Positions 4,061 to 21,975 of a stretch of DNA of 43,433 bases are shown here, piece after piece. The notes beneath the pieces were generated by a model. The model was not told the origin of the DNA. It did no database searches and saw only the letters and a program-made list of their open reading frames with translations. The position numbers were made by a program, and so were the translations under genes. Source of the DNA: Bacteroidales bacterium (GTDB taxonomy: Bacteria; Bacteroidota; Bacteroidia; Bacteroidales; Prolixibacteraceae); contig JAATGF010000041.1 in the NCBI GenBank assembly GCA_015654795.1, positions 1 to 43,433 on the forward strand, in the 5' to 3' direction. Within the stretch, counting starts at the first letter, position 1. Every line of letters starts with the position of its first letter.

Positions 4061-5212
4061 TTGCGCATGAATAGTATATTCGATTATCACAAGCAACACT
4101 TATGCCCCGACAAGATGAATGAGTTTTTACAAGTTGTACAACTAATACAAACTGCCCGAAATCGCGCTCTTAGTACCGTAAACAGCGAGTTGGTGAACCT
4201 TTACTGGCAAGTGGGACAATATGTTTCGCAGCAATTGGAAAAAGCCAGGTGGGGCGAGAGCATGGTGGCTGAATTGGCTAACTATATCAAAAAAAACCAT
4301 CCCGAAATCAAAGGATTCGACAAAAAAAATATCTATCGGATGTGCCGATTTTACGAATTGTACAAGGATTTATCAATTGTCGCACCAGTGGTGCGACAAT
4401 TGATAAATCCTGATAATGAAGCAAATAATATTGTCGCACCAGCGGCGCGACAATTCCATGGGAATGATAACGAAATGCCAACGTTGAGTGATATTCGACA
4501 AACAATTTTGGCAAAAATCAGTTGGTCGCATCACTTGATCCTAATAGGTAGGTGCAAAACATCTGAAGAAAGAGAGTTTTATTTAAAATTAAGCATACAG
4601 GAGCATTACAGTAAGAGAGAATTGGATCGACAAATCAACAGTAGTGTATTTGAACGGGTAATGTTAGGCAATGCCCAATTGCCTCAAAGTGTTAAGCAAT
4701 TGCCACAAAATTTAACCAATGTATTCAAGGACAGCTATGTATTCGAATTTCTTAATCTGCCTGAGCCTTATGTCGAAAACGATCTGCGCAAAGCGTTACT
4801 GCACGAATTGAAGTTTTTTTTACTCGAATTGGGTCCCGACTATCTGTTTGTAGGCGAAGAGTTTCCGCTTAAAGTTGGCAACCGGGACTTTCGCATCGAC
4901 TTGCTGTTTTTTCACAGATCACTGCAATGCCTGATCGCTTTTGAACTGAAAACAAACCGGTTTGAACCTGAGCATTTGGGTAAAACCAATTTTTATCTGG
5001 AAGCACTTGACCGCGATGTTCGTAAGCCCCACGAAAACCCTAGCATTGGCGTGTTGCTCTGTAAAGATAAAGACGAAGAAGTGGTTGAATACGCTTTGAG
5101 CCGAAACTTAAGTCCAACGATGGTGGCGCAATATCTTACGGCAATGCCCGATAAAAAACTGCTGCAGCAAAAACTACATGAACTATTTCAAATAGAAGAT
5201 AATAATCAATGA
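4061..5212 (+). CDS. DUF1016/YhcG-type PD-(D/E)xK nuclease-domain protein (383 aa)
   Basis: The N-terminal DUF1016 helical domain (about residues 15-105) has the usual Ala-Arg...Tyr-Trp-x-x-Gly-x-x-Ile/Val and Trp-Gly-x-x-x-Val-x-x-Leu patterns. A C-terminal PD-(D/E)xK nuclease fold follows, with Asp280, then Glu295-Leu-Lys297, and the family's usual Leu-Gly-Lys-Thr-Asn-Phe-Tyr-Leu-Glu-Ala stretch. These proteins are often found in defence islands and mobile elements; their target is not settled. Between the two domains (about residues 100-135) the protein carries two inserts encoded by DNA palindromes (4365-4411 and 4430-4454) without loss of frame. A second possible start is Met3 at 4067. 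The position just ahead of the restriction island fits a defence role. Confidence 0.85.
   Translation: MRMNSIFDYHKQHLCPDKMNEFLQVVQLIQTARNRALSTVNSELVNLYWQVGQYVSQQLEKARWGESMVAELANYIKKNHPEIKGFDKKNIYRMCRFYELYKDLSIVAPVVRQLINPDNEANNIVAPAARQFHGNDNEMPTLSDIRQTILAKISWSHHLILIGRCKTSEEREFYLKLSIQEHYSKRELDRQINSSVFERVMLGNAQLPQSVKQLPQNLTNVFKDSYVFEFLNLPEPYVENDLRKALLHELKFFLLELGPDYLFVGEEFPLKVGNRDFRIDLLFFHRSLQCLIAFELKTNRFEPEHLGKTNFYLEALDRDVRKPHENPSIGVLLCKDKDEEVVEYALSRNLSPTMVAQYLTAMPDKKLLQQKLHELFQIEDNNQ
4365..4411. repeat. 47-bp perfect palindrome inside the DUF1016 gene
   Basis: Two 23-bp arms flank a single central G at 4388. Each arm contains aattgtcgcacca or its complement, and there are no mismatches. It is read in frame and encodes an Ile-Val-Ala-Pro-Val-Val-Arg-Gln-type peptide. 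Fifteen bases of the arm (caattgtcgcaccag) recur at 19322-19336. Confidence 0.9.
4430..4454. repeat. Second, imperfect palindrome of the same type in the DUF1016 gene
   Basis: It has 12-bp arms around a G at 4442, with two mismatches. The left arm repeats attgtcgcacca from the 47-bp palindrome, so the two are degenerate copies. It encodes Ile-Val-Ala-Pro-Ala-Ala-Arg-Gln, again in frame. Confidence 0.8.
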
Positions 5213-8080: not shown

Positions 8081-9046
8081 ATGATGAATGATAAACTAAG
8101 TTTGATCAAACAGCACGATATCGAAAACCGGATTTTCAATATTCGTGGTGTACAGGTTATGCTCGACAGCCATTTGTCTGAAATGTTTCAGGTCGAAACC
8201 AAAGTTTTCAATCAAGCAGTAAAGAGAAATACTGAACGTTTTCCTAAACAGTTTAGATTTCAATTGAATGAAGATGAATGGCAAATCTTGAAGTCACAAA
8301 TTGTGACTTCAAGTGAAGATTCTTTAAGGTTCCAAAATGGCACCTTAAACGAAGACTCTTTAAGGTCACAAATTGTGACCTTAAACAAAGGAAGAGGACA
8401 ACATCGGAAATACTTACCCTACGTTTTTACAGAGCAGGGGGTGGCAATGCTTTCTGCTGTATTACGCAGCAAAACAGCAGTAAAGGTGAGTATTCAAATT
8501 ATGCAGGCATTCGTTGAAATGCGAAAAATGGTTTTAGGTAATACCGCATTGTTTCAACGCCTCGACAGGATGGAGTTCAAACAATTGGAAACTGATCATA
8601 AATTTGAAAAGGTTTTTAGAGCCCTCGAAAGCCGCGAACAGCAGCCAGATAAGGGAATATTTTACGATGGACAGGTGTTCGATGCCTGGGCATTTGTATC
8701 AGACCTGATTCGCAAAGCAAGAACCTTAATTATTTTGATTGATAATTACGTGGATGATACAGTTTTGAGTCTGTTCACAAAACGCGAAAAAGGTGTAACC
8801 GTAACCATCTACACCAAAAACATCAGTAAGCAACTTGAAGTGGATGTGGAAAAACACAATGCCCAATACGAACCAATTGCCGTAAAAAAACTTACACAGG
8901 CACACGACCGATTTTTGATTGTTGATAATACCGGGCTTTACCATATTGGTGCCTCCCTCAAAGACCTGGGTAAAAAGTGGTTTGCCTTCTCCAAACTGGA
9001 TACCGAAACGCTTAATATATTGAATAAGTTAAATGAGAAAAAATGA
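8081..9046 (+). CDS. ORF6N-domain protein (321 aa) between hsdM and hsdS
   Basis: The N-terminal ORF6N domain (about residues 10-95, with Ile-Arg-Gly-Val-Gln-Val-Met-Leu-Asp...Leu-Ser-Glu-Met-Phe and Phe-Pro-Lys-Gln-Phe-Arg-Phe-Gln) is a DNA-binding module known from phage antirepressors. The usual Tyr-Val-Phe-Thr-Glu-Gln-Gly-Val-Ala-Met-Leu motif follows at about 113-123. The C-terminal half (about 190-310) resembles the extension found in Bacteroidota ORF6N proteins. Between residues about 69 and 105 lie three palindrome-encoded peptides (Ser-Gln-Ile-Val-Thr and variants) that lengthen the normal loop. Such genes often sit inside Bacteroidota type I operons. A function in regulating the system is likely but unproven. 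The stop codon is 6 bp before hsdS. Confidence 0.85.
   Translation: MMNDKLSLIKQHDIENRIFNIRGVQVMLDSHLSEMFQVETKVFNQAVKRNTERFPKQFRFQLNEDEWQILKSQIVTSSEDSLRFQNGTLNEDSLRSQIVTLNKGRGQHRKYLPYVFTEQGVAMLSAVLRSKTAVKVSIQIMQAFVEMRKMVLGNTALFQRLDRMEFKQLETDHKFEKVFRALESREQQPDKGIFYDGQVFDAWAFVSDLIRKARTLIILIDNYVDDTVLSLFTKREKGVTVTIYTKNISKQLEVDVEKHNAQYEPIAVKKLTQAHDRFLIVDNTGLYHIGASLKDLGKKWFAFSKLDTETLNILNKLNEKK
8287..8385. repeat. Three palindromes in tandem inside the ORF6N gene
   Basis: P1 at 8287-8313 is a perfect 27-bp palindrome (cttgaagtcacaa, central a, mirror). P2 at 8323-8349 has 12-bp arms with one mismatch. P3 at 8359-8385 is a perfect 27-bp palindrome (tttaaggtcacaa, a, mirror). P2 and P3 sit in two tandem 36-bp units, each starting gaaga(t/c)tctttaaggt and each adding 12 codons (Glu-Asp-Ser-Leu-Arg-x-Gln-x-x-Thr-Leu-Asn). 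All are in frame. Confidence 0.9.
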
Positions 9047-10243: not shown

Positions 10244-12082
10244 ATGACCATCTTAATTGAGAAAGTAAGAATATATGGTTTCAGGGGACTTGAAAATATT
10301 GAAGTTGATCTTGAACCGACTAGTGTTTTAACAGGTATGAACAATGCTGGTAAAACTTCATTTCTGAAAGCATTACAAATTGTATTTGGTAATCGGCAAT
10401 TTCTCACTCAGGATGATTTTCATATATCAGATACTGCAAAAGTCGATAAAATAGTAATAGATGTAAAAATAATTCCAGTTAACTCAGAAGGGAAACAACT
10501 AGGTGCTTTTGAAGATGATTGGGAAATATTATTCACAGAAGATAAAATTAGAAATGATGTTGATGGAAAACAATTTATCCCTTTACGTACAATGGTTAAG
10601 GTTGAACCTATTACAAATACCTATAAAACTAATCAATACATACAACAAGAATGGGTAGATTTTCTAAATGAGGGAAACCAATATTGGTACCAATCAAATT
10701 TAGGCACAGAGAAATCTTTTCATTATGAAGAAATACCGTTTTTCTATATGGATGCGCAACGAGATATTATTGATGATATGAAGGTCCGCAATTCTTATTT
10801 GGGAAAAATGCTATCAAACATCCAGTATTCACCTGATGTCATCAAAGAAATAGAAGCACAGATAGCGGCATTGAATGAGCAAGCAGTTAAGGGTAGCGAT
10901 ATTCTTTCAAATATTGAAACTACGTTAAAGGAGTTGGATACTGCTATGGATAATACAAATAATGGTATTGATATCACTCCATTCCCTAAAAAAGTTCGAG
11001 ATTTGAACAAAGGAATTTCAATTGTTTATTCTGATTTTCCTATGGAATACCACGGTATGGGAACTCGTAGCTGGTCGTCATTATTAACACTGAAATCGTT
11101 TGTTTCTCTTTTTGATAAGAATTCAAAGGAAAATAATAGACCTTTTTTCCCAATTGTGGCTATTGAGGAACCAGAAGCACATTTGCATCCCAATGCTCAG
11201 AAAAAGCTGTATAGCCAAATCATGTGTATGCCTGGACAGAAGCTAATTTCAACTCATTCACCATATATTGCAGCTACTACAAAATTAGAACAAATCAGAA
11301 GTTTTTATAAAAATGAGCTATCCGTAAAATGTGGTAAGTTAGAAGTTAATGATTTTTCTCCAGAAGAAATCCGTAAAATCCAAAGAGAAGTAATAAATAC
11401 ACGAGGTGAATTATTCTTTTCAAAGATAATAGTATTATGCGAGGGTGAAACGGAGGAGCAAGCTCTTCCAATTTTTGCCGAAGAATACTTTAAGAAAACT
11501 CCAATGGAGTTGGGTATCGATTTTGTGGGTGTAGATGGATTTGGCAATTATCTTCCTTTTTTACGATTAGCTGAATCACTAACCATTCCTTGGTTTATTT
11601 TTAGTGATGGTGAAAATCAAGTAAAGAAAAAGTTAAAAAAAGATTTAAAAGAAATTTTGAAAGATGATAAAATTGATTTATCAACAGTATCCAATGTTTT
11701 TATCTTAGAAAAAGAGTATGATTTTGAGAAGTATCTACTAAATAATGGTTTCGAAGATGAAATAAAGATGGCATTCACAAAATTATTTTCAGATACATAT
11801 TTAGAAGAACAGATTAAGAAGAAAGACGGTACATCGAAAGGGAGAATTCAAACGGCAAAAAAATGCAAAATTTGTTCACAGAACATTTATGAAGATGTTT
11901 TGAGAAATTATTTAGGGGATGATGGTTATATACAAGCTTTATATGATTGTATGACAGATAATAAAACACCATTTGGGCCAGCAATAGCTGAAGCAATAAT
12001 TGAAAGTGGGAAAAGTTTACCTCCAATTATTATTGCATTATTTGATAAAATAAGTGAAACCCTTGTCAAAAAAGATTTATGA
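10244..12082 (+). CDS. gajA: GajA-like OLD-family ATPase/TOPRIM endonuclease (Gabija)
   Basis: This is an overcoming-lysogenization-defect (OLD) protein. The ABC-type ATPase Walker A is Gly-Met-Asn-Asn-Ala-Gly-Lys-Thr at 31-38. Walker B is Ala-Ile-Glu-Glu-Pro-Glu-Ala-His-Leu-His near 305, and the His switch is in Ser-Thr-His-Ser-Pro. The C-terminal TOPRIM nuclease has Cys-Glu-Gly-Glu-Thr-Glu near 399 and Ser-Asp-Gly-Glu near 453. Class 2 OLD proteins paired with a UvrD-like helicase form the Gabija anti-phage system: GajA nicks DNA and is restrained by nucleotides, and GajB senses DNA ends. The 612-residue length fits. A Cys-x-x-Cys pair near 545 is extra. A strong aggaga ribosome-binding site lies just before the ATG, and the gene is 15 bp after hsdS and overlaps gajB by 4 bp. 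Confidence 0.85.
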   Translation: MTILIEKVRIYGFRGLENIEVDLEPTSVLTGMNNAGKTSFLKALQIVFGNRQFLTQDDFHISDTAKVDKIVIDVKIIPVNSEGKQLGAFEDDWEILFTEDKIRNDVDGKQFIPLRTMVKVEPITNTYKTNQYIQQEWVDFLNEGNQYWYQSNLGTEKSFHYEEIPFFYMDAQRDIIDDMKVRNSYLGKMLSNIQYSPDVIKEIEAQIAALNEQAVKGSDILSNIETTLKELDTAMDNTNNGIDITPFPKKVRDLNKGISIVYSDFPMEYHGMGTRSWSSLLTLKSFVSLFDKNSKENNRPFFPIVAIEEPEAHLHPNAQKKLYSQIMCMPGQKLISTHSPYIAATTKLEQIRSFYKNELSVKCGKLEVNDFSPEEIRKIQREVINTRGELFFSKIIVLCEGETEEQALPIFAEEYFKKTPMELGIDFVGVDGFGNYLPFLRLAESLTIPWFIFSDGENQVKKKLKKDLKEILKDDKIDLSTVSNVFILEKEYDFEKYLLNNGFEDEIKMAFTKLFSDTYLEEQIKKKDGTSKGRIQTAKKCKICSQNIYEDVLRNYLGDDGYIQALYDCMTDNKTPFGPAIAEAIIESGKSLPPIIIALFDKISETLVKKDL

Positions 12083-13926
12083 TTATGCAAAATATAATAA
12101 AATTATCACCCAAACAAAATGAGGCCGTTTTACACGATAATGGAGCCATACTTGTAATAGCAAGTGCTGGAAGTGGTAAAACGCGTGTTCTTACTGAACG
12201 TATAAAAAGACTTCTTGATAAAACTAAACGAAAAATTCTTGCTATTACATTTACAAACAAAGCAGGAGAAGAAATGAGAGAACGTTTGGGCAACAATGAA
12301 AAAATTAAATCCCAAGTATTTATTGGCACTTTCCATGGTTTTTGTCAGCAGGTCTTGGAAATGCGTTATAATCTGATTGGTCTTTCAAAAATGCCTCATA
12401 TTTTTGAAGATGACTCTGATCGTCTTGAACTTATTGAACAAGCGATAGAATCAACTCCTTCCTATAGTTTAAAATATGTGGCGTTAGAACCAAAAAAACA
12501 ACGAGAATTTCGATATGATGTTTTAGGGTTTATTTCAAGTGTAAAAAGAAAATTATTATCCGAAGCAGAATTGCTAAAGGAGACAAATGATGAAGACCTA
12601 GTATTACTTTATCATTCATATCAGGAAATATTAGCTTCACAAAATGCAATTGATTTTGACGATTTAATCATGTTTACCCACCGTTTGTTTATAAATAATC
12701 CATCTGTTGCAGCCTTGTATAGAAGGACTTATGAATATATTTGCATTGATGAAGCACAAGATTTAAATAATGCACAATATCAACTTTTAAAATCAATTAC
12801 GACTGATGAATATAGGAATGTAATGATGGTAGGTGACCCAAATCAATCAATTTTTGCCTTTAATGGCTCTTCTTCTAATTATATGAGTAAAAAATTCGTC
12901 GAGGATTTTAATCCAACCATAATAGAATTAAAAGAAAATTATCGTTCTGCCAGAAAAGTGATAGAAGCTGCTGAAAAGATTATTCCTGGCTCTAATGAAA
13001 TAGTTAATATGGTAATTCCTGGCATTTTTAAAATTCATTGCGCCAACGATGAAGACTCAGAATCAATCTGGATTATTGATAAGATTAAAAGATTGATATT
13101 AAAAGGTCAACATGAAGATATTGAAGGACAAATAACTTATGAAAAAATAGCTGTTTTAGCTCGAAATAAATATGTTTTTACCATTCTTGAAAAACAATTA
13201 AAGGAATTGTCAATACCATATTATTTCAAAATAACGCCTGGAGCGATTAAGTTTGAATCAAAAACAATGAATATATTTGATTTGGCTTTAAGAGTAAAAA
13301 TTAATTCAGATGACAACCTTCACTGGTTACGTTTACTCGAATTGTTAAAAATAGAGAAAGGAATCAACCTTCAAAATTTGGTTAATATCATAGAAAAAGA
13401 ACAATTTAGAAAGGTTGTAGAACTGGTAATCAATTTAAAAGAAGATGGAAGTAATTTCAAATCTTCACTAATCAAATACTCAGATTATATAAAAGTTAGC
13501 AATGATATTAGAGATGATGATCATCGGAAAATGATTTTAGATGAAATAGAGGATATTCAAAATCATTGGTTTAACTATGCAAAAAAAACGGAAAAGGAAT
13601 CTCTTATTCAATTCAAAAATGCAATGGCATTGGGACAAACACACCCACAATCACAACCTAAAGGTATAACCTTGAGTACGGTGCATACAATGAAAGGGCA
13701 AGAATATGATATTGTTTTTTTAATGGGTATGGATGATGGGACTTTCCCTGATTATAGAGCAATAAATAATGGTGGAGTTGAAATGGTGCAAGAAAAAAAC
13801 AATGCATATGTGGCATTCACTAGAGCAAAACGTTTTCTATTTGTTACATATCCAGAACAACGACAAATGCCTTGGGGAGCCATTAAACAAAGAACGATGT
13901 CCCGATTTTTGAAAAATTTTGAATGA
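12079..13926 (+). CDS. gajB: GajB-like UvrD/PcrA-type superfamily 1 helicase (Gabija)
   Basis: Residues 28-35 carry the Walker A (Ala-Ser-Ala-Gly-Ser-Gly-Lys-Thr). Motif II, Asp-Glu-Ala-Gln-Asp, is near 223. Motif III is Gly-Asp-Pro-Asn-Gln-Ser-Ile-Phe, and motif V His-Thr-Met-Lys-Gly-Gln-Glu lies near the C-terminus. Motif VI is Tyr-Val-Ala-Phe-Thr-Arg-Ala-Lys. It belongs to the UvrD/PcrA/Rep group. Its partner gajA ends inside its start (ATGA overlap), the usual Gabija arrangement, so translational coupling is likely. At 615 residues it is longer than the best-known GajB (about 500) but well within the helicase family. A second in-frame Met lies at residue 3 (12085). Its own stop overlaps the start of the hsdR remnant in the same ATGA fashion. 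Confidence 0.85.
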   Translation: MIMQNIIKLSPKQNEAVLHDNGAILVIASAGSGKTRVLTERIKRLLDKTKRKILAITFTNKAGEEMRERLGNNEKIKSQVFIGTFHGFCQQVLEMRYNLIGLSKMPHIFEDDSDRLELIEQAIESTPSYSLKYVALEPKKQREFRYDVLGFISSVKRKLLSEAELLKETNDEDLVLLYHSYQEILASQNAIDFDDLIMFTHRLFINNPSVAALYRRTYEYICIDEAQDLNNAQYQLLKSITTDEYRNVMMVGDPNQSIFAFNGSSSNYMSKKFVEDFNPTIIELKENYRSARKVIEAAEKIIPGSNEIVNMVIPGIFKIHCANDEDSESIWIIDKIKRLILKGQHEDIEGQITYEKIAVLARNKYVFTILEKQLKELSIPYYFKITPGAIKFESKTMNIFDLALRVKINSDDNLHWLRLLELLKIEKGINLQNLVNIIEKEQFRKVVELVINLKEDGSNFKSSLIKYSDYIKVSNDIRDDDHRKMILDEIEDIQNHWFNYAKKTEKESLIQFKNAMALGQTHPQSQPKGITLSTVHTMKGQEYDIVFLMGMDDGTFPDYRAINNGGVEMVQEKNNAYVAFTRAKRFLFVTYPEQRQMPWGAIKQRTMSRFLKNFE

Positions 13927-18354: not shown

Positions 18355-18443
18355 TTGAGAATTATCAAAGCTGTATTAAACAATTGATTAAATGTGATTT
18401 TGAACTCATAATCTGAAAAGACAAACTTTAAAGCAATAGTTAT

Positions 18444-18472
18444 ACCCGTCCCAACAGGCGGGTTTTTTTTTT
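18444..18472 (+). terminator. Intrinsic terminator after hsdR
   Basis: The short GC stem acccg/cgggt around a 10-base loop is followed directly by ten T residues, about 90 bp beyond the hsdR stop codon. Confidence 0.7.
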
Positions 18473-18515
18473 ACCTGTATCAGAGAAAGTATGCTGTTGC
18501 ACTCAAATTGTCGAG

Positions 18516-18676
18516 CAAAGTTATTGATCGCCGGACCGGAAAAGTCAAGGACCGTCCGGTGATGCGGATGGCAACCTTTGGAGCATCACCTTCCGGCACT
18601 TCGTGCTCGGTCACTTTCAGCCCACGAAAGGCAGAAACTGACATTCGCCCCTGGCTAGAATCCGCCCGGCTCAATG
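18516..18676. repeat. 160-bp conserved upstream element, copy 1 (before radC)
   Basis: It matches 19453-19614. The first ~130 bp differ at only two bases (ggac/gggc near 18551, tggc/tgac near 18571) and the last ~30 bp are more diverged. It can fold: ccggac (18531-18536) pairs with gtccgg (18554-18559), and ggcacttcgtgct forms a tight hairpin near 18595-18607. It is followed at 18703 by the short leader motif and then the radC-like ORF. Open frames exist on both strands, but they do not agree between copies downstream of the core, so I treat it as a non-coding regulatory or mobile element. Confidence 0.8.
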
Positions 18677-18702
18677 TTGATTGCTCGAAATTTAATTCCA
18701 AC

Positions 18703-18745
18703 GGCGAGCCAGATGCAAAAATCCGCGAGGCTGTGGTAAAACACA
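18703..18745 (+). promoter_or_regulatory. Conserved leader motif, copy 1
   Basis: The order is ggcgagccagatgc, then a-rich tract, ccgcgaggct, then ggtaaaacacaatg. The motif ends at the radC-like start codon at 18746. Five copies of this motif precede five consecutive ORFs; the distance from GGCG to ATG is 43 bp here. Confidence 0.75.
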
Positions 18746-19282
18746 ATGATTACAGAAGTTATAGCAGAAGTACAAATCTCTTATTCTTCTTATGTAAAGG
18801 CTAAAAACCGAATGAAAGAGACTAGCTCCAAAGATGCCGCTGATGCTTTCAGAATATTCCGGCCGGCTTACGAGCACATTGAATTCAGCTATTTGCTGAT
18901 GCTGAACCGCCAGAACCAGATCCTTGGTTATCACCAGCTTTCCAAGGGAGGAATAACCGGTGCGGTGGTTGATATCCGGATGATTTTCCAGGTTGCATTA
19001 AAAGCTTGCGCCACCTCACTGATCCCAGCACATAATCATCCATCGGAAAACCTTGATACAAGTGACGTGAACCGGAAGATTACCCGACAAATAAAAGAAG
19101 CCGGTGTTATCCTCGACATTCCGCTGCTGGATCACTTGATTATGACCATTGATTCATATCTCTCAATGGTCGATGATGGTCTTCTTCAAAAATCATTCAA
19201 TCGTTCACCTGATCTACAAGATTGTCTTTCCTACAACTACTTGATTCCCATTATTTGTGATCAGGTTTTCATGAAAATTTAA
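18746..19282 (+). CDS. radC: RadC-family JAB-domain protein (178 aa)
   Basis: The JAB/MPN domain covers most of the protein. Its metal site is His96-Asn-His98-Pro-Ser with Asp107 downstream, and the family's Leu-Asn-Arg-Gln-Asn-Gln-Ile-Leu-Gly and Asp-His-Leu-Ile stretches are present. The domain is normally a metal-dependent protease or isopeptidase fold. In RadC-type proteins the role is unclear, despite the name's link to DNA repair, and the N-terminal helix-hairpin-helix of chromosomal RadC is absent here, as in mobile-element versions. It is preceded by the 160-bp element and the leader motif, whose end sets the start at 18746. A terminator follows at 19291. Confidence 0.85.
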   Translation: MITEVIAEVQISYSSYVKAKNRMKETSSKDAADAFRIFRPAYEHIEFSYLLMLNRQNQILGYHQLSKGGITGAVVDIRMIFQVALKACATSLIPAHNHPSENLDTSDVNRKITRQIKEAGVILDIPLLDHLIMTIDSYLSMVDDGLLQKSFNRSPDLQDCLSYNYLIPIICDQVFMKI

Positions 19283-19290
19283 AATAGATT

Positions 19291-19316
19291 AAAGGAAGGT
19301 TTTGTTTCCTTTTTTT
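19291..19316 (+). terminator. Intrinsic terminator after the radC-like gene
   Basis: The stem aaaggaa/ttccttt with an 8-base loop runs into a T tract, beginning 9 bp after the stop codon. Confidence 0.65.
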
Positions 19317-19452
19317 GTTTGCAATTGTCGCACCAGATCATCACAAATACTTTATCCAAACTTCCTTACTTTTTCATTTAATATCTTTATGTATAGTAAA
19401 TAACACGTGTTCTATTTTTCTTAGAAGATATCTCTCTCCTCCAATTTTTCAC

Positions 19453-19614
19453 CAAAGTTATTGATCGCCGGACCGGAAAAGTCAAGGGCCGTCCGGTGAT
19501 GCGGATGACAACCTTTGGAGCATCACCTTCCGGCACTTCGTGCTCGGTCACTTTCAGCCCACGAAAGGCAGAAACTGACATACCGCCCTTGACAAGAATC
19601 CGACCGGCTCAATG
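19453..19614. repeat. 160-bp conserved upstream element, copy 2 (before symE-like gene)
   Basis: It is the second copy of the element at 18516-18676, including the ccggac...gtccgg stem and the ggcacttcgtgct hairpin. One base is inserted near the right end. The flanking DNA on the left (before 19453) is unrelated to that of copy 1, so the copy boundary is sharp at caaagttattg. Confidence 0.8.
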
Positions 19615-19634
19615 ATCACTGGTTCAAATTAACA

Positions 19635-19681
19635 GGCGAGCCAGATGCCATTAAAAATCCGTAAGGCAGCGGTGAAAAACA
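19635..19681 (+). promoter_or_regulatory. Conserved leader motif, copy 2
   Basis: ggcgagccagatgcc, then attaaaaatccg, then aaggcagcggtgaaaaaca, ending at the ATG of the symE-like gene (19682). GGCG to ATG is 47 bp. Confidence 0.75.
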
Positions 19682-19870
19682 ATGACACGCAAATTTAAAC
19701 TTCAGACACAGTATGTTTCAAAGAAATATACACGGGAAATAAAAGTTATTCCAAAGCTGACCCTTTGCGGGAAATGGCTTGAAACTGCCGGCTTCATACC
19801 AAATGAAATCATTTATGTGAAAGTTGAAGAAGGTCGCCTTGTAATCACCTCTTATCAACCAGCTGAATAG
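19682..19870 (+). CDS. symE: SymE-like toxin-family protein (62 aa)
   Basis: The small basic protein has the SymE pattern: Arg/Lys-rich start, then Lys-Leu-Thr-Leu-Cys-Gly-Lys-Trp-Leu-Glu-x-Ala-Gly-Phe, then Val-Lys-Val-Glu-Glu-Gly-Arg-Leu-Val-Ile-Thr. This AbrB-like swapped-hairpin fold is shared with the E. coli SOS-induced toxin SymE, whose mRNA is silenced by the antisense RNA SymR. In E. coli symE lies beside hsdRMS; here it also lies just downstream of hsdR. The 160-bp element and leader precede it, and the upstream element may carry regulatory RNA. No symR has been shown here; that part is inference. Confidence 0.8.
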   Translation: MTRKFKLQTQYVSKKYTREIKVIPKLTLCGKWLETAGFIPNEIIYVKVEEGRLVITSYQPAE

Positions 19871-19877
19871 TAAAAAT

Positions 19878-19923
19878 GGCGTGCCAGATGCCAATATAAG
19901 TCCCCAGGGCAGGGGCAAAATAA
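19878..19923 (+). promoter_or_regulatory. Conserved leader motif, copy 3
   Basis: ggcgtgccagatgccaata, then agtcccc, then agggcaggggcaaaataa, ending at the ATG at 19924. It starts 7 bp after the symE stop codon, without the 160-bp element. Confidence 0.7.
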
Positions 19924-20271
19924 ATGACTGAATTTGAGTTTATTGAAGAGTTGAAAGGTTACCAGAAAAATTTTGAAAAACTTAATTACATATTTGTCAG
20001 GGATATGCATAAATACATCCGCAAATCAACGGTTTATGACAGCACTTTTTTCAAAACCATTTTAAACTTTTCTGCCAATATAACCCTGACAGCGGCATGG
20101 ATTAAACTATTAAAAGATTTTAATTCAGATAAATACACCAATATTATCCATTTTTCACCCGATTTCAATCATTCAACAGGCGTACCAGATACCATTAAAA
20201 AGTCTGTAGGCAGCAGCAATAATGAATTTAAAGATTCTCAATCTTACAAAACAACAGGAATCAACTATTAA
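19924..20271 (+). CDS. Hypothetical protein of the leader array (115 aa), C-terminus reads through the next leader
   Basis: I do not recognise the family. Residues 1-80 look like a genuine globular, mostly helical protein rich in Phe, Asn and Lys. The last 30 residues are encoded by leader copy 4 (Thr-Gly-Val-Pro-Asp-Thr-Ile-Lys-Lys) and the start of the next ORF, so the natural C-terminus was probably lost when the next unit joined. The 50-bp overlap with the ORF at 20222 follows from this. The start is fixed by leader copy 3. Confidence 0.55.
   Translation: MTEFEFIEELKGYQKNFEKLNYIFVRDMHKYIRKSTVYDSTFFKTILNFSANITLTAAWIKLLKDFNSDKYTNIIHFSPDFNHSTGVPDTIKKSVGSSNNEFKDSQSYKTTGINY
20179..20221 (+). 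promoter_or_regulatory. Conserved leader motif, copy 4
   Basis: ggcgtaccagataccatta, then aaaagtctg, then taggcagcagcaata, ending at the ATG at 20222. It is the most diverged of the first four copies but has the same order and spacing (43 bp). It lies inside the end of the 115-residue ORF. Confidence 0.65.
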
Positions 20272-20428
20272 ACTGATTCTGTCAAATCAACTTGGCCCGA
20301 AAGAATTTTCAGGTGTTCAATTCCGGATCGGTCAGTGTTACAATCTCCCTTCACTTAATGAACAGAAAATGTGTACTTTTAATCAGATTCTCTTTGGATT
20401 CGGAATAGAATCTGTCGAAGGAGAATAG
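20222..20428 (+). CDS. Hypothetical protein of the leader array (68 aa)
   Basis: Unrecognised. The product starts with an amphipathic stretch and contains Gly-Pro-Lys-Glu-Phe-Ser-Gly-Val-Gln-Phe and Gly-Phe-Gly-Ile-Glu. The ATG sits exactly at the end of leader copy 4, which is the main reason to believe the start. About 130 bp of non-coding DNA follows before leader copy 5. Confidence 0.5.
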   Translation: MNLKILNLTKQQESTIKLILSNQLGPKEFSGVQFRIGQCYNLPSLNEQKMCTFNQILFGFGIESVEGE

Positions 20429-20560
20429 CAAAATGGCTATTGGCGCAATATTTTTTTACCTACGTAAGCATCGGATTTTCTGACCTGCTGACAATTATCC
20501 ATCACAGAGATAAAGGTTTTATAGTTGATTCAGTTGAAAATATTATTACAAAATCCAACC

Positions 20561-20614
20561 GGCGTGCCAGATATCAATAAAAATCCGAAAAAGTACCTGC
20601 TGTTGGTGAGAGGG
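20561..20614 (+). promoter_or_regulatory. Conserved leader motif, copy 5 (degenerate)
   Basis: ggcgtgccagatatcaataa, then aaatccgaaaaag. The right half (ggcagcgg) is no longer recognisable, and the ATG at 20615 is 54 bp from GGCG. The left half matches the other copies well. Confidence 0.6.
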
Positions 20615-20749
20615 ATGATTTACCATTTTAAATCAGAAAAGAGCTTTGCTAATCAGGGCTTTTTTGTGGTCGCTTACGGATGCCATTTTATTGAAAAGGA
20701 TGAAACCGGGCGGCTTCATCCTTTTACTAAAACTAACCAAACTAACTAA
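20615..20749 (+). CDS. Small hypothetical protein, last of the leader array (44 aa)
   Basis: The frame opens at 20615 after leader copy 5 and ends at TAA 20747-20749. It begins Met-Ile-Tyr-His-Phe-Lys-Ser-Glu-Lys. The same frame is open further upstream to about 20525, through the leader. Function and family are unknown. Given the position in the array, a real gene is plausible but not shown. Confidence 0.35.
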   Translation: MIYHFKSEKSFANQGFFVVAYGCHFIEKDETGRLHPFTKTNQTN

Positions 20750-21975
20750 CCTAACATTCATATTTATTACAATTATCGGGCCAATATGATTACCCACAAA
20801 TATATTTTAGTTGAAAATTGCAAAATAAATTTCCGTCCCAAACAGACATGAATTCAGTGTAAATTCAGGATGCCAATTTATTTTAAAACCAAGGTCTGTC
20901 AGAGTGTAGTTTTTCTTTATGAAGCTGTCGTTCACTCAGTACAGGAGTCTGATTCACTCAGGTCGGTGATTTTATCGAGAGATGCAGCTGGTAATGAGTT
21001 TAAAACCTCCAATTCACGAGTGTATATATATTATTTATATGGCCTCGTGGAGCTCCCACACAATTGTTAGGCGTACAGGAATTAGTTTTTGCCGTGTGTT
21101 CGGTTTCATCAGTAATCACCTCTGTTATCGACGAGATGAAACGCATACTGGATGTTAAAGTCCGTGATGCTGAAGAACAAATCAACCTTTGAAAATCGGA
21201 AGTGTTGCTCCCTTTTTTTTTGTCGCTGTGGAGAAAGGAATATCAAATGCATATTCAATCGATGCATTTAAAGAAGGGCATTTCTAATGCACATTCTGAG
21301 TCTTGAATTTTCAGTTATTATTGTACGAATTGAATCAGATAAATCAATATATCAATAGATTAACGATTATTAATATAAAGTTTGTATTAAAAACTCTCAA
21401 TGAGAGAAATCTACAACTTTCAAGAAGATGAAAGGTTGTAATCCTGGAAAATTATTCTTCTTTAAAATTCTTTAAAATTCACTTTTTTCCTTTTTTTTAA
21501 AAAAAATCTAGAAAATTGGGGAATTCATAAAATATGATTATAATTGCATCGTAATGTGAACGTTACGCTTCGTTCTTCCATTAGTGACCTAATAGGTGAC
21601 CTCCACTGAAACGGACTCTTCAAATAACTGATTTATTGATGTTTGTGACTTTAAAATGGCATCCGGCTACCCCGACAAAATGGGGTACCAAGCCCTAACA
21701 AAAAGCTCTTAAATCACTGGATTTAAGGGCTTTTTCATTTTTATATCATCTGAAATCAATCTAAATGTGTCCTAACAGGTGCCCTTTTTTAATATTATAT
21801 TGGGGAAACCTATCTGGCAGTAAATATTTATGATACAAATATTTACAAGGATGCAACTTCATAAAATATGATCGATTTTGCAGCTATTTGGTCGGGGTTT
21901 CTATACTCTATTTTGATTTATGTTCAAAACAGATCATTTAACACTAAATTGACTGATATATTATCCATTTTCGAT
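20750..21975. other. Long gene-poor stretch with hairpins and a diverged 19-bp direct repeat
   Basis: No confident gene is present. A frame at 20870-21070 lacks recognisable features, and a short plus-strand C-terminus-like stretch (about 21067-21192, ending Glu-Glu-Gln-Ile-Asn-Leu) may be a gene remnant. Two 19-bp elements of the form gtgnccta(a/t)naggtgnccct-like at 21584-21602 and 21767-21785 agree at 16 of 19 positions and flank the terminator hairpin. A 10-bp-arm inverted repeat (gtaaatattt...aaatatttac) lies at 21820-21846. The stretch separates the plus-strand array from the minus-strand kinase. Confidence 0.4.
21702..21740. terminator. Strong, probably bidirectional terminator hairpin
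   Basis: A 14-bp stem (aaagctcttaaatc against gatttaagggcttt, one G-T pair) has the loop actg. A run rich in T follows on the plus strand and A residues precede it. It can stop transcription from both sides; no plus-strand gene is visible just upstream. Confidence 0.7.

Follow-up and report, generated by a model that had tools for sequence, protein, structure and literature searches.

A 43,433-nucleotide (nt) contig from a Bacteroidales bacterium of the family Prolixibacteraceae (JAATGF010000041.1; the whole stretch is termed the window) carries an array of small genes in which five successive open reading frames (ORFs) are each headed by a copy of the same short leader, while the first two leaders are preceded in turn by a long hairpin, termed here the head element. 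The array genes lie on the + (top) strand, and the bottom strand is their template. Heads and leaders of this kind recur in this order at many other loci, and no −7 promoter motif reading into the genes is conserved on the top strand. We consider it probable that the two elements define an establishment and anti-restriction regulon, in which a Frpo-like hairpin promoter would serve a group of genes and one leader RNA each gene.

A shared leader in the window array

The leader consensus GGCG(A/T)(G/A)CCAGAT was found on the + strand at 18703, 19635, 19878, 20179 and 20561, and the ATG follows 43, 47, 46, 43 and 54 bases, respectively, after these positions. Covariance model R1 was prepared from 40 training copies, the five window leaders among them, and model R2, built to limit circularity, from 150 copies that R1 had gathered at other loci, none of them from the window. 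R1 returned the five window leaders at E 1.1e-31 to 7.8e-15 (next match 0.12), and R2 returned the same five at E 5.5e-33 to 4.6e-7 with no further match at E<1. The places and ATG spacings agree with those given in a preliminary description of this DNA, and since a model free of window sequence recovers the five leaders, they are not a product of chance. The features of the array, with the evidence for each, are:

18496..18702, − strand: head element 1, rod-like hairpin 5′ of leader 1 (repeat, fold, arms, motif places, family alignment)
18695..18748, + strand: leader copy 1 (R1 E 4e-22; R2 E 4.8e-15)
18746..19282, + strand: RadC-type JAB protein, 178 amino acids (aa) (PF04002 E 4.5e-31)
19443..19634, − strand: head element 2 (repeat, family alignment, arms, motif places)
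19627..19684, + strand: leader copy 2 (R1 E 1.1e-31; R2 E 1.8e-29)
19682..19870, + strand: SymE-family protein, 62 aa (PF08845 E 1.2e-12)
19870..19926, + strand: leader copy 3, internal, without head (R1 E 7.3e-31; R2 E 5.5e-33)
19924..20271, + strand: ORF 3, a 115-aa protein of cluster c10 (45% identity with the c10 member at locus L027)
20171..20228, + strand: leader copy 4 (R1 E 3.3e-18; R2 E 2.8e-13)
20222..20592, + strand: ORF 4, broken cluster c14 gene (two tblastn pieces, 85% and 79% to L183)
20553..20617, + strand: leader copy 5, second hairpin degenerate (R1 E 7.8e-15; R2 E 4.6e-7)
20615..20749, + strand: short ORF 5 behind leader 5, 44 aa from this ATG (a BLAST cluster of its own)
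20948..21189, + strand: C-terminal remnant of a gene of cluster c0 (two tblastn matches to L182, 81% and 74%)

The ORFs had been described as unrelated to one another, and this holds for the first two, which belong to PF04002 and PF08845; ORFs 3–5 gave no Pfam match at E≤0.1 (ORF 5 scanned as the 74-aa ORF 20525–20749). ORF 3 is open over its whole length and, as also described, reads through leader 4. ORF 4 is only the start of a broken c14 gene, ORF 5 is short and leader 5 is degenerate. The preliminary description did not include the long structured elements 5′ of leaders 1 and 2.

Structure of the leader

The leader is an RNA-like element of two strongly covarying hairpins with its 3′ end at the ATG. 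From 5′ to 3′ the model reads GGC, GNGCCAGA, an optional hairpin, GCC, an A-rich linker, hairpin 2, an A-rich spacer and the ATG, where GGC and GCC form the first helix and hairpin 2 has the form RYCCNN-AGGGCA-NNGGY with AGGGCA as its loop. When 40 copies were aligned plainly with MAFFT, the paired share of the hairpin 2 cells was 91.9%, against 81.9% after shuffling, and changes on both sides of a pair numbered 37 compared with 13. For 150 copies aligned by the model, and so biased towards it, the values were 98.3% versus 84.7% and 162 versus 46. The optional hairpin covaries too. Of 303 distinct leader copies, 280 have a start codon where the model stops (−3 to −1). This covariation, the fixed place at the ATG and the recurrence of one leader in front of unrelated gene families throughout the order give good support to the shared regulatory leader that had been put forward as one reading of the array.

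No window match rose above the gathering score of Rfam 15, and the scan at 18400–20900 gave only five sub-threshold matches (E 1.3–3.2); the leader is an element outside the Rfam 15 families scanned. A leader with a partial internal tandem duplication of itself, as unequal crossing-over between leaders would leave, was observed at L195:6736-6812.

The head element

The head is a rod-like hairpin, mostly of 110–215 nt, situated 5′ of a leader. Its first part runs CAAANNTATTGATCGC..CCGGAA..GT(C/A)AAGGG and then three variable arms, and its second part TGACATNC.CCCTTGAC..AATCCG..GGCTCAAT, a variable arm and AAATTTAANTTTAAC, after which the leader begins. In the window, a 151-nt repeat at head 1 is 93% identical to 19439–19589 at head 2, and folding of head 1 as DNA (18500–18702) gave z −4.24, which none of 200 shuffles equalled. 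The −7 motif of head 1 lies on the bottom strand at 18516–18523 (top strand CAAAGTTA), the −33 region lies at 18544–18550, and 22 bases separate the TA from the −33 triplet. The corresponding bottom-strand places in head 2 are 19453–19460 and 19481–19487, again with 22 bases between, and its right arm carries TTGAC at 19589–19593 and CTCAAT at 19608–19613. The right arm of head 1 has CTGGC in place of the usual TTGAC, indicating that head 1 is partly decayed.

Using a loose pattern, the head motif was detected before 140 of the 212 leaders that have no other leader less than 700 nt upstream, and before 11 of the 88 that do, leaving 77 without. That internal leaders mostly lack a head is what would be expected if the leader were a translational element of each cistron. 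The loose right-arm pattern was unspecific, matching 1853 places of which 160 lay directly 5′ of a leader, and tighter or other anchors were therefore used in the later tests. A strict pattern blind to the leader found 43 heads. Forty of them stand within 45 nt of a leader in the collected set; at two others the adjoining DNA shows a leader copy or variant missing from that set, and at the last one the leader is truncated.

The columns that close the arms of the head covary in several helices (all pairs were scanned, and pairs were chosen without a shuffle control), and RNAalifold analysis of head plus leader found both sides changed in six of 15 pairs. For 62 non-redundant heads, the outer arms paired at −7.64 kcal/mol with their own partner versus −5.83 when partners were swapped (standard deviation 0.19, 30 shuffles). 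The 200 nt upstream of leaders without another leader less than 700 nt upstream gave a mean DNA-fold z of −2.57 (110 of 213 sampled), and those upstream of internal leaders −1.33 (40 of 88 sampled). At L221, three of four short heads have as their first arm a hairpin with a T-run, followed by a second copy of the CCCTTGCC arm, an arrangement that is attenuator-like.

The promoter motif in the head

The housekeeping promoter consensus of Bacteroidota is given as TAnnTTTG at −7 and TTTG at −33 (sigma-ABfr; PMC7366714). The exact −7 motif on the bottom strand, TANNTTTG, was present in the left arm of 95 of 120 heads located via another anchor, whereas only 2.0% of 45-mers in the control contain it. 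The spacing between this motif and the −33 triplet, itself part of the anchor used for this count, was 20–21 in 74 of these 95 heads (22 in the window heads), and this is near the value of 20 that we derive from the names −33 and −7. In the region that opens 130 nt before the anchor and closes at the ATG, the motif occurred on the bottom strand at 104 of 116 heads and on the top strand at five of 116 (control 17%), and between the right arm and the ATG no exact top-strand copy was found at any of the 116. The 120- and 116-head counts merged only heads with an identical 80 nt upstream, so that related heads are counted repeatedly. Further upstream of the head, neither a conserved sequence nor a + strand −7 motif was found among 87 non-redundant heads. 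Given the scarcity of the top-strand motif, no canonical duplex −7 reading into the arrays is conserved.

On the bottom strand of duplex DNA the head motif points away from the genes, and in a folded single bottom strand it would point into them. A stem bearing promoter elements that read into the genes, the mark of Frpo-type promoters, is therefore present at the level of sequence.

Genes and carriers of the leader

The covariance-model search beyond this locus and the listing of the ORFs behind the leader, both proposed in the preliminary description, gave the 303 distinct copies. Behind them lie 295 ORFs of at least 25 aa (eight copies have no such ORF), which fall into 47 BLAST clusters. 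The leader is thus neither peculiar to this locus, since copies were found across Bacteroidales genomes, nor tied to one gene family. The largest clusters are c0 (52), RadC (39), ArdC (36), DUF6573 (30), a small zinc-finger-like protein (28) and a DnaJ-like protein (18), and the smaller ones include SymE (5), a SLOG protein (4) and an N6-methylase (3). Cluster names rest on one representative each; the small zinc-finger-like cluster has no Pfam match over the cut-off, and the DnaJ-like match lies just under it. No Pfam match at E≤0.05 was obtained with one member each of c0, c6, c7, c10, c11, c12 and c14, and a PDB profile search with c0 yielded no more than two matches, both weak (E 0.2 and 0.38).

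Judged by sequence, the leader genes are mostly of mobile-element types, such as RadC, ArdC and DUF6573. ArdC-N and RadC domains occur in proteins of conjugative elements and phages, and ArdC is linked to protection against restriction, as set out in PMC5512222. The leader genes look like establishment or anti-restriction genes of mobile elements rather than the toxin/defence array first suggested.

At L213, AbiEi/AbiEii and a gene for a type I specificity subunit lie before the array, and genes for a toprim protein (primase), MobC, a relaxase and a coupling protein come after it on the same strand. Homologues of this block are present at L193, L210 and L218, and a TraG-type conjugation ATPase is encoded at L214. 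At least one other carrier is a phage: the element at L165 encodes a portal-like protein that shares 53% identity with a protein of an unannotated phage record and 29% with annotated phage portals. L183 gave a weaker portal match.

Proposed regulon

We propose that the head before the first gene of many groups acts as a hairpin, or single-strand, promoter. The bottom strand would fold when single-stranded or extruded, whereupon its left arm would supply the non-template −33/−7 for a Bacteroidota sigma factor and its right arm the template, a geometry that we infer. Transcription would start near the base of the rod, directly 5′ of leader 1, and enter the array. Since the motif points away from the genes in duplex DNA, expression would be transient, like that from Frpo on F-type plasmids, and the folded leader RNA of each cistron would most likely control or enable its translation in response to some factor. 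Besides conjugative single strands, the model allows another trigger, for example supercoil-driven extrusion. More broadly, and with odds slightly below even, the head may be a sigma-ABfr-type entry switch common to the conjugative elements and phages of Bacteroidales, on when single-stranded or extruded and silent in relaxed duplex. It would drive variable anti-host-defence operons with one and the same translational leader RNA on their cistrons, where gain and loss of genes at the leaders keeps their control.

Heads and leaders before varied anti-restriction-type genes could explain how such genes are switched on upon entry into a new cell. The model gives a testable rule for the timing of these genes in elements entering Bacteroidales, and R1 plus the head motif offers a search handle for anti-defence candidates by their leader. 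Bacteroidota have their own promoter code, and no single-strand promoter for them turned up in listings of the open-access literature.

Several observations weigh against this proposal. The head motif was absent before 72 of the 212 leaders without a close upstream leader, and no head was seen at five ParB-type loci or at L133, L144 and L185 (at L089 the test covered just 132 nt). The exact −7 is missing from 25 of 120 heads, mostly by one base, and in 59 of 116 the −33 triplet is TTT instead of TTG. Folded one sequence at a time, the leader does not stand out (z 0.78 to −1.26, six sequences), and a possible leader pseudoknot, pairing GCC with the GGC of the second loop, has letters that hardly vary and so gives no covariation signal. 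The relaxase lies on the array strand in 17 of the 19 arrays that have one within 40 kb (24 arrays have none in that range), a slight excess over the base rate of 101 of 144 other ORFs of at least 150 aa (one-sided p 0.047). Finally, phage records carry heads and leaders, and none of 14 IMG/VR records, which are fragments, gave a relaxase or TraG match; conjugative single strands therefore cannot be the sole trigger.

Alternatively, transcription might begin at a promoter some way before the head and run through it, so that head and small leader jointly act as a large regulatory RNA resembling an attenuator or riboswitch. The RNA fold of 18500–18702 is strong too (z −2.89, one of 200 shuffles as good), in our reading a hairpin and then a T-run lie inside three of the four L221 heads, and large structured sequences also precede establishment genes as EGeRS1 of pLS20 (PMC8708921). 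This is nevertheless judged unlikely, because a + strand −7 with one mismatch occurs at 47 of 87 heads versus 54% of controls (the exact motif at five of 116), no conserved sequence lies upstream (the motif test being one for canonical promoters), and the near-constant bottom-strand −7/−33 spacing would be left unexplained. An ordinary duplex promoter on the bottom strand, making a leftward antisense or divergent RNA, would account for −33/−7 elements that are canonical in that direction; we hold it to be improbable, as the sequence on the left is not conserved (0.09 bits of information on average between −100 and −46) and the covarying right arm would be needless.

The preliminary description had further offered a cassette-type array assembled at the leader. 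Modules of leader plus gene do occur in varied order among loci, and at L193, the one case examined, a DnaJ-like module is missing exactly between two leaders. The switch lies inside the 3′ end of the leader, the DnaJ-type leader continuing up to a few bases before the ATG of the next gene. Such a junction is what a crossover between leader repeats would leave, so that leaders can also serve as recombination seams, and this is the sound part of the cassette idea. That leaders are sites of a dedicated recombinase, like attC of integrons, is a very remote prospect, however. The nearest leader (<97% identity) belonged to the same gene family for 163 of 276 copies (9% expected) and to the same locus with another family for 15 of 276 (expected same-locus share 0.9%); in addition, leaders hold a fixed distance to the ATG, single leaders occur outside arrays, and the L193 crossover fits homologous recombination between leader repeats. 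A chance similarity or low-complexity repeat, for which nothing was found in support, can be dismissed for practical purposes, being refuted by R2 and also at odds with the covariation. The hairpin-promoter regulon is thus the reading that we retain.

Comparison with known systems

The closest known system is Frpo in mechanism and the EGeRS of pLS20 plasmids in organisation. Frpo/ssi promoters of F-type plasmid leading regions form when a folded single strand mimics a duplex promoter, lie 5′ of early-entry and anti-defence genes and have the transferred strand as template (PMC11541004). The heads likewise lie 5′ of putative genes of this kind, and the transferred strand may be the template here too. 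Unlike Frpo, which has TTGACA/TATAAT, the heads carry the Bacteroidota −7/−33, form a three-armed rod, are followed by a second, RNA leader before the genes and are found in phage records as well. The term Bacteroid has no occurrence in the main text of that paper (PMC11541004). In the account of PMC8708921, a number of establishment operons of the pLS20 family, with ardC among their genes, likewise share a conserved sequence at their start (EGeRS1 and EGeRS2), and EGeRS1 is structured. Unlike the heads, however, EGeRS1 is described there on Bacillus plasmids, spans 400–600 bp and has the transferred strand as non-template, and unlike the window array the passages on these sequences give no small leader for each gene (PMC8708921). 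As organisation, with sequences outside the comparison, the EGeRS type of regulon is found here, with heads and leaders before ArdC, RadC, DUF6573 and other genes.

The radC RNA motif (RF01754) precedes radC-type genes and, like the leader, is a candidate cis-regulatory RNA. It differs in having 149 positions and in being listed for Proteobacteria (PMC2864571), and none of 41 genomes, the window's own among them, matched it at E≤1. STAXI resembles the leader as a pseudoknotted repeat near antirestriction, Ssb and integrase genes, and differs in consisting of tandem repeats listed for Enterobacteriales (PMC2864571); Rfam scans of the window did not return it. The GUCCY-hairpin is tabulated by Weinberg 2010 for Bacteroidetes and Proteobacteria, without an Rfam number in that table, and lies outside the leader comparison.

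Distribution of the leader

The leader was found at E≤1e-3, weak matches counted, in 96 of 140 genomes of the family, with up to 35 per genome. In a sample of the order, 25 of 344 genomes had it at E≤1e-8 (the window's own genome and one family member included), and in a sample of the phylum one of 395, namely the own genome. The leader is confined almost wholly to Bacteroidales. A pattern scan gave 87 stretches, whose named records are mostly Bacteroidales, several being Prolixibacteraceae, Mangrovibacterium, Sunxiuqinia or Mariniphaga (leaders are present in records of Mangrovibacterium lignilyticum and Sunxiuqinia dokdonensis), and the pattern was also present in 25 IMG/VR stretches. It matched Phocaeicola vulgatus ATCC 8482 and Bacteroides stercorirosoris, where we read the gene behind the leader as ParB-like; the B. 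stercorirosoris protein gave no Pfam match. A few matches lay in metagenome-assembled genomes labelled Gracilibacteria, Absconditabacterales, Ignavibacteriales and Alphaproteobacteria, and these may be mis-binned contigs. Searches of named collections gave no match for the P. vulgatus locus among plasmids and phages, for the L218 locus among plasmids, or for the c0 protein among phages and plasmids.

The window's own genome holds a sixth leader (L260:6368-6445; G000:C64:33367-33444), which has a head and precedes an ArdC gene, with a relaxase 19 kb away on the same strand.

A strong leader (E 3.8e-31) at L133:1685-1742 precedes a lipoprotein-like gene; the locus has neither a head nor a second leader, suggesting that the leader may reach beyond mobile-element genes. 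Two leaders at L144:6075-6856 precede genes that we read as phosphatase-like and secreted-protein-like, on a contig labelled Absconditabacterales and possibly mis-binned.

State and surroundings of the window array

The window array is partly decayed. ORF 4 is the first part of a longer c14 gene that has been interrupted around 20452–20458, where a stop and a frameshift occur; it stops at 20428, and c14 homology resumes in another frame after about 20452. ORF 5 is probably vestigial, and the c0 remnant at 20948–21189 consists of two pieces in different frames. The RadC protein of the window and the RadC encoded behind a leader at L183 share 79% identity across 147 aa. A SymE-family protein, as in the SymE/SymR type I toxin–antitoxin system, is present; in that system SymR is an antisense RNA that overlaps symE at its 5′ end. 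Here the motif on the bottom strand of head 2 sits to the left of symE and is directed away from it.

A locus for type I restriction (hsdM 6075, hsdS 9053, hsdR 15067) lies upstream of the array. Between hsdR and head element 1, a terminator-like inverted repeat with a T-run was read from the sequence at 18445–18472. Within the restriction island, hsdS and hsdR enclose a pair of genes (10244–13926) that we take to be Gabija-like, the first for an AAA_15/OLD-type nuclease and the second for a UvrD-type helicase. The same island encodes a DUF1016/YhcG PDDEXK nuclease and an ORF6N-domain protein at 4061–5212 and 8081–9046, respectively.

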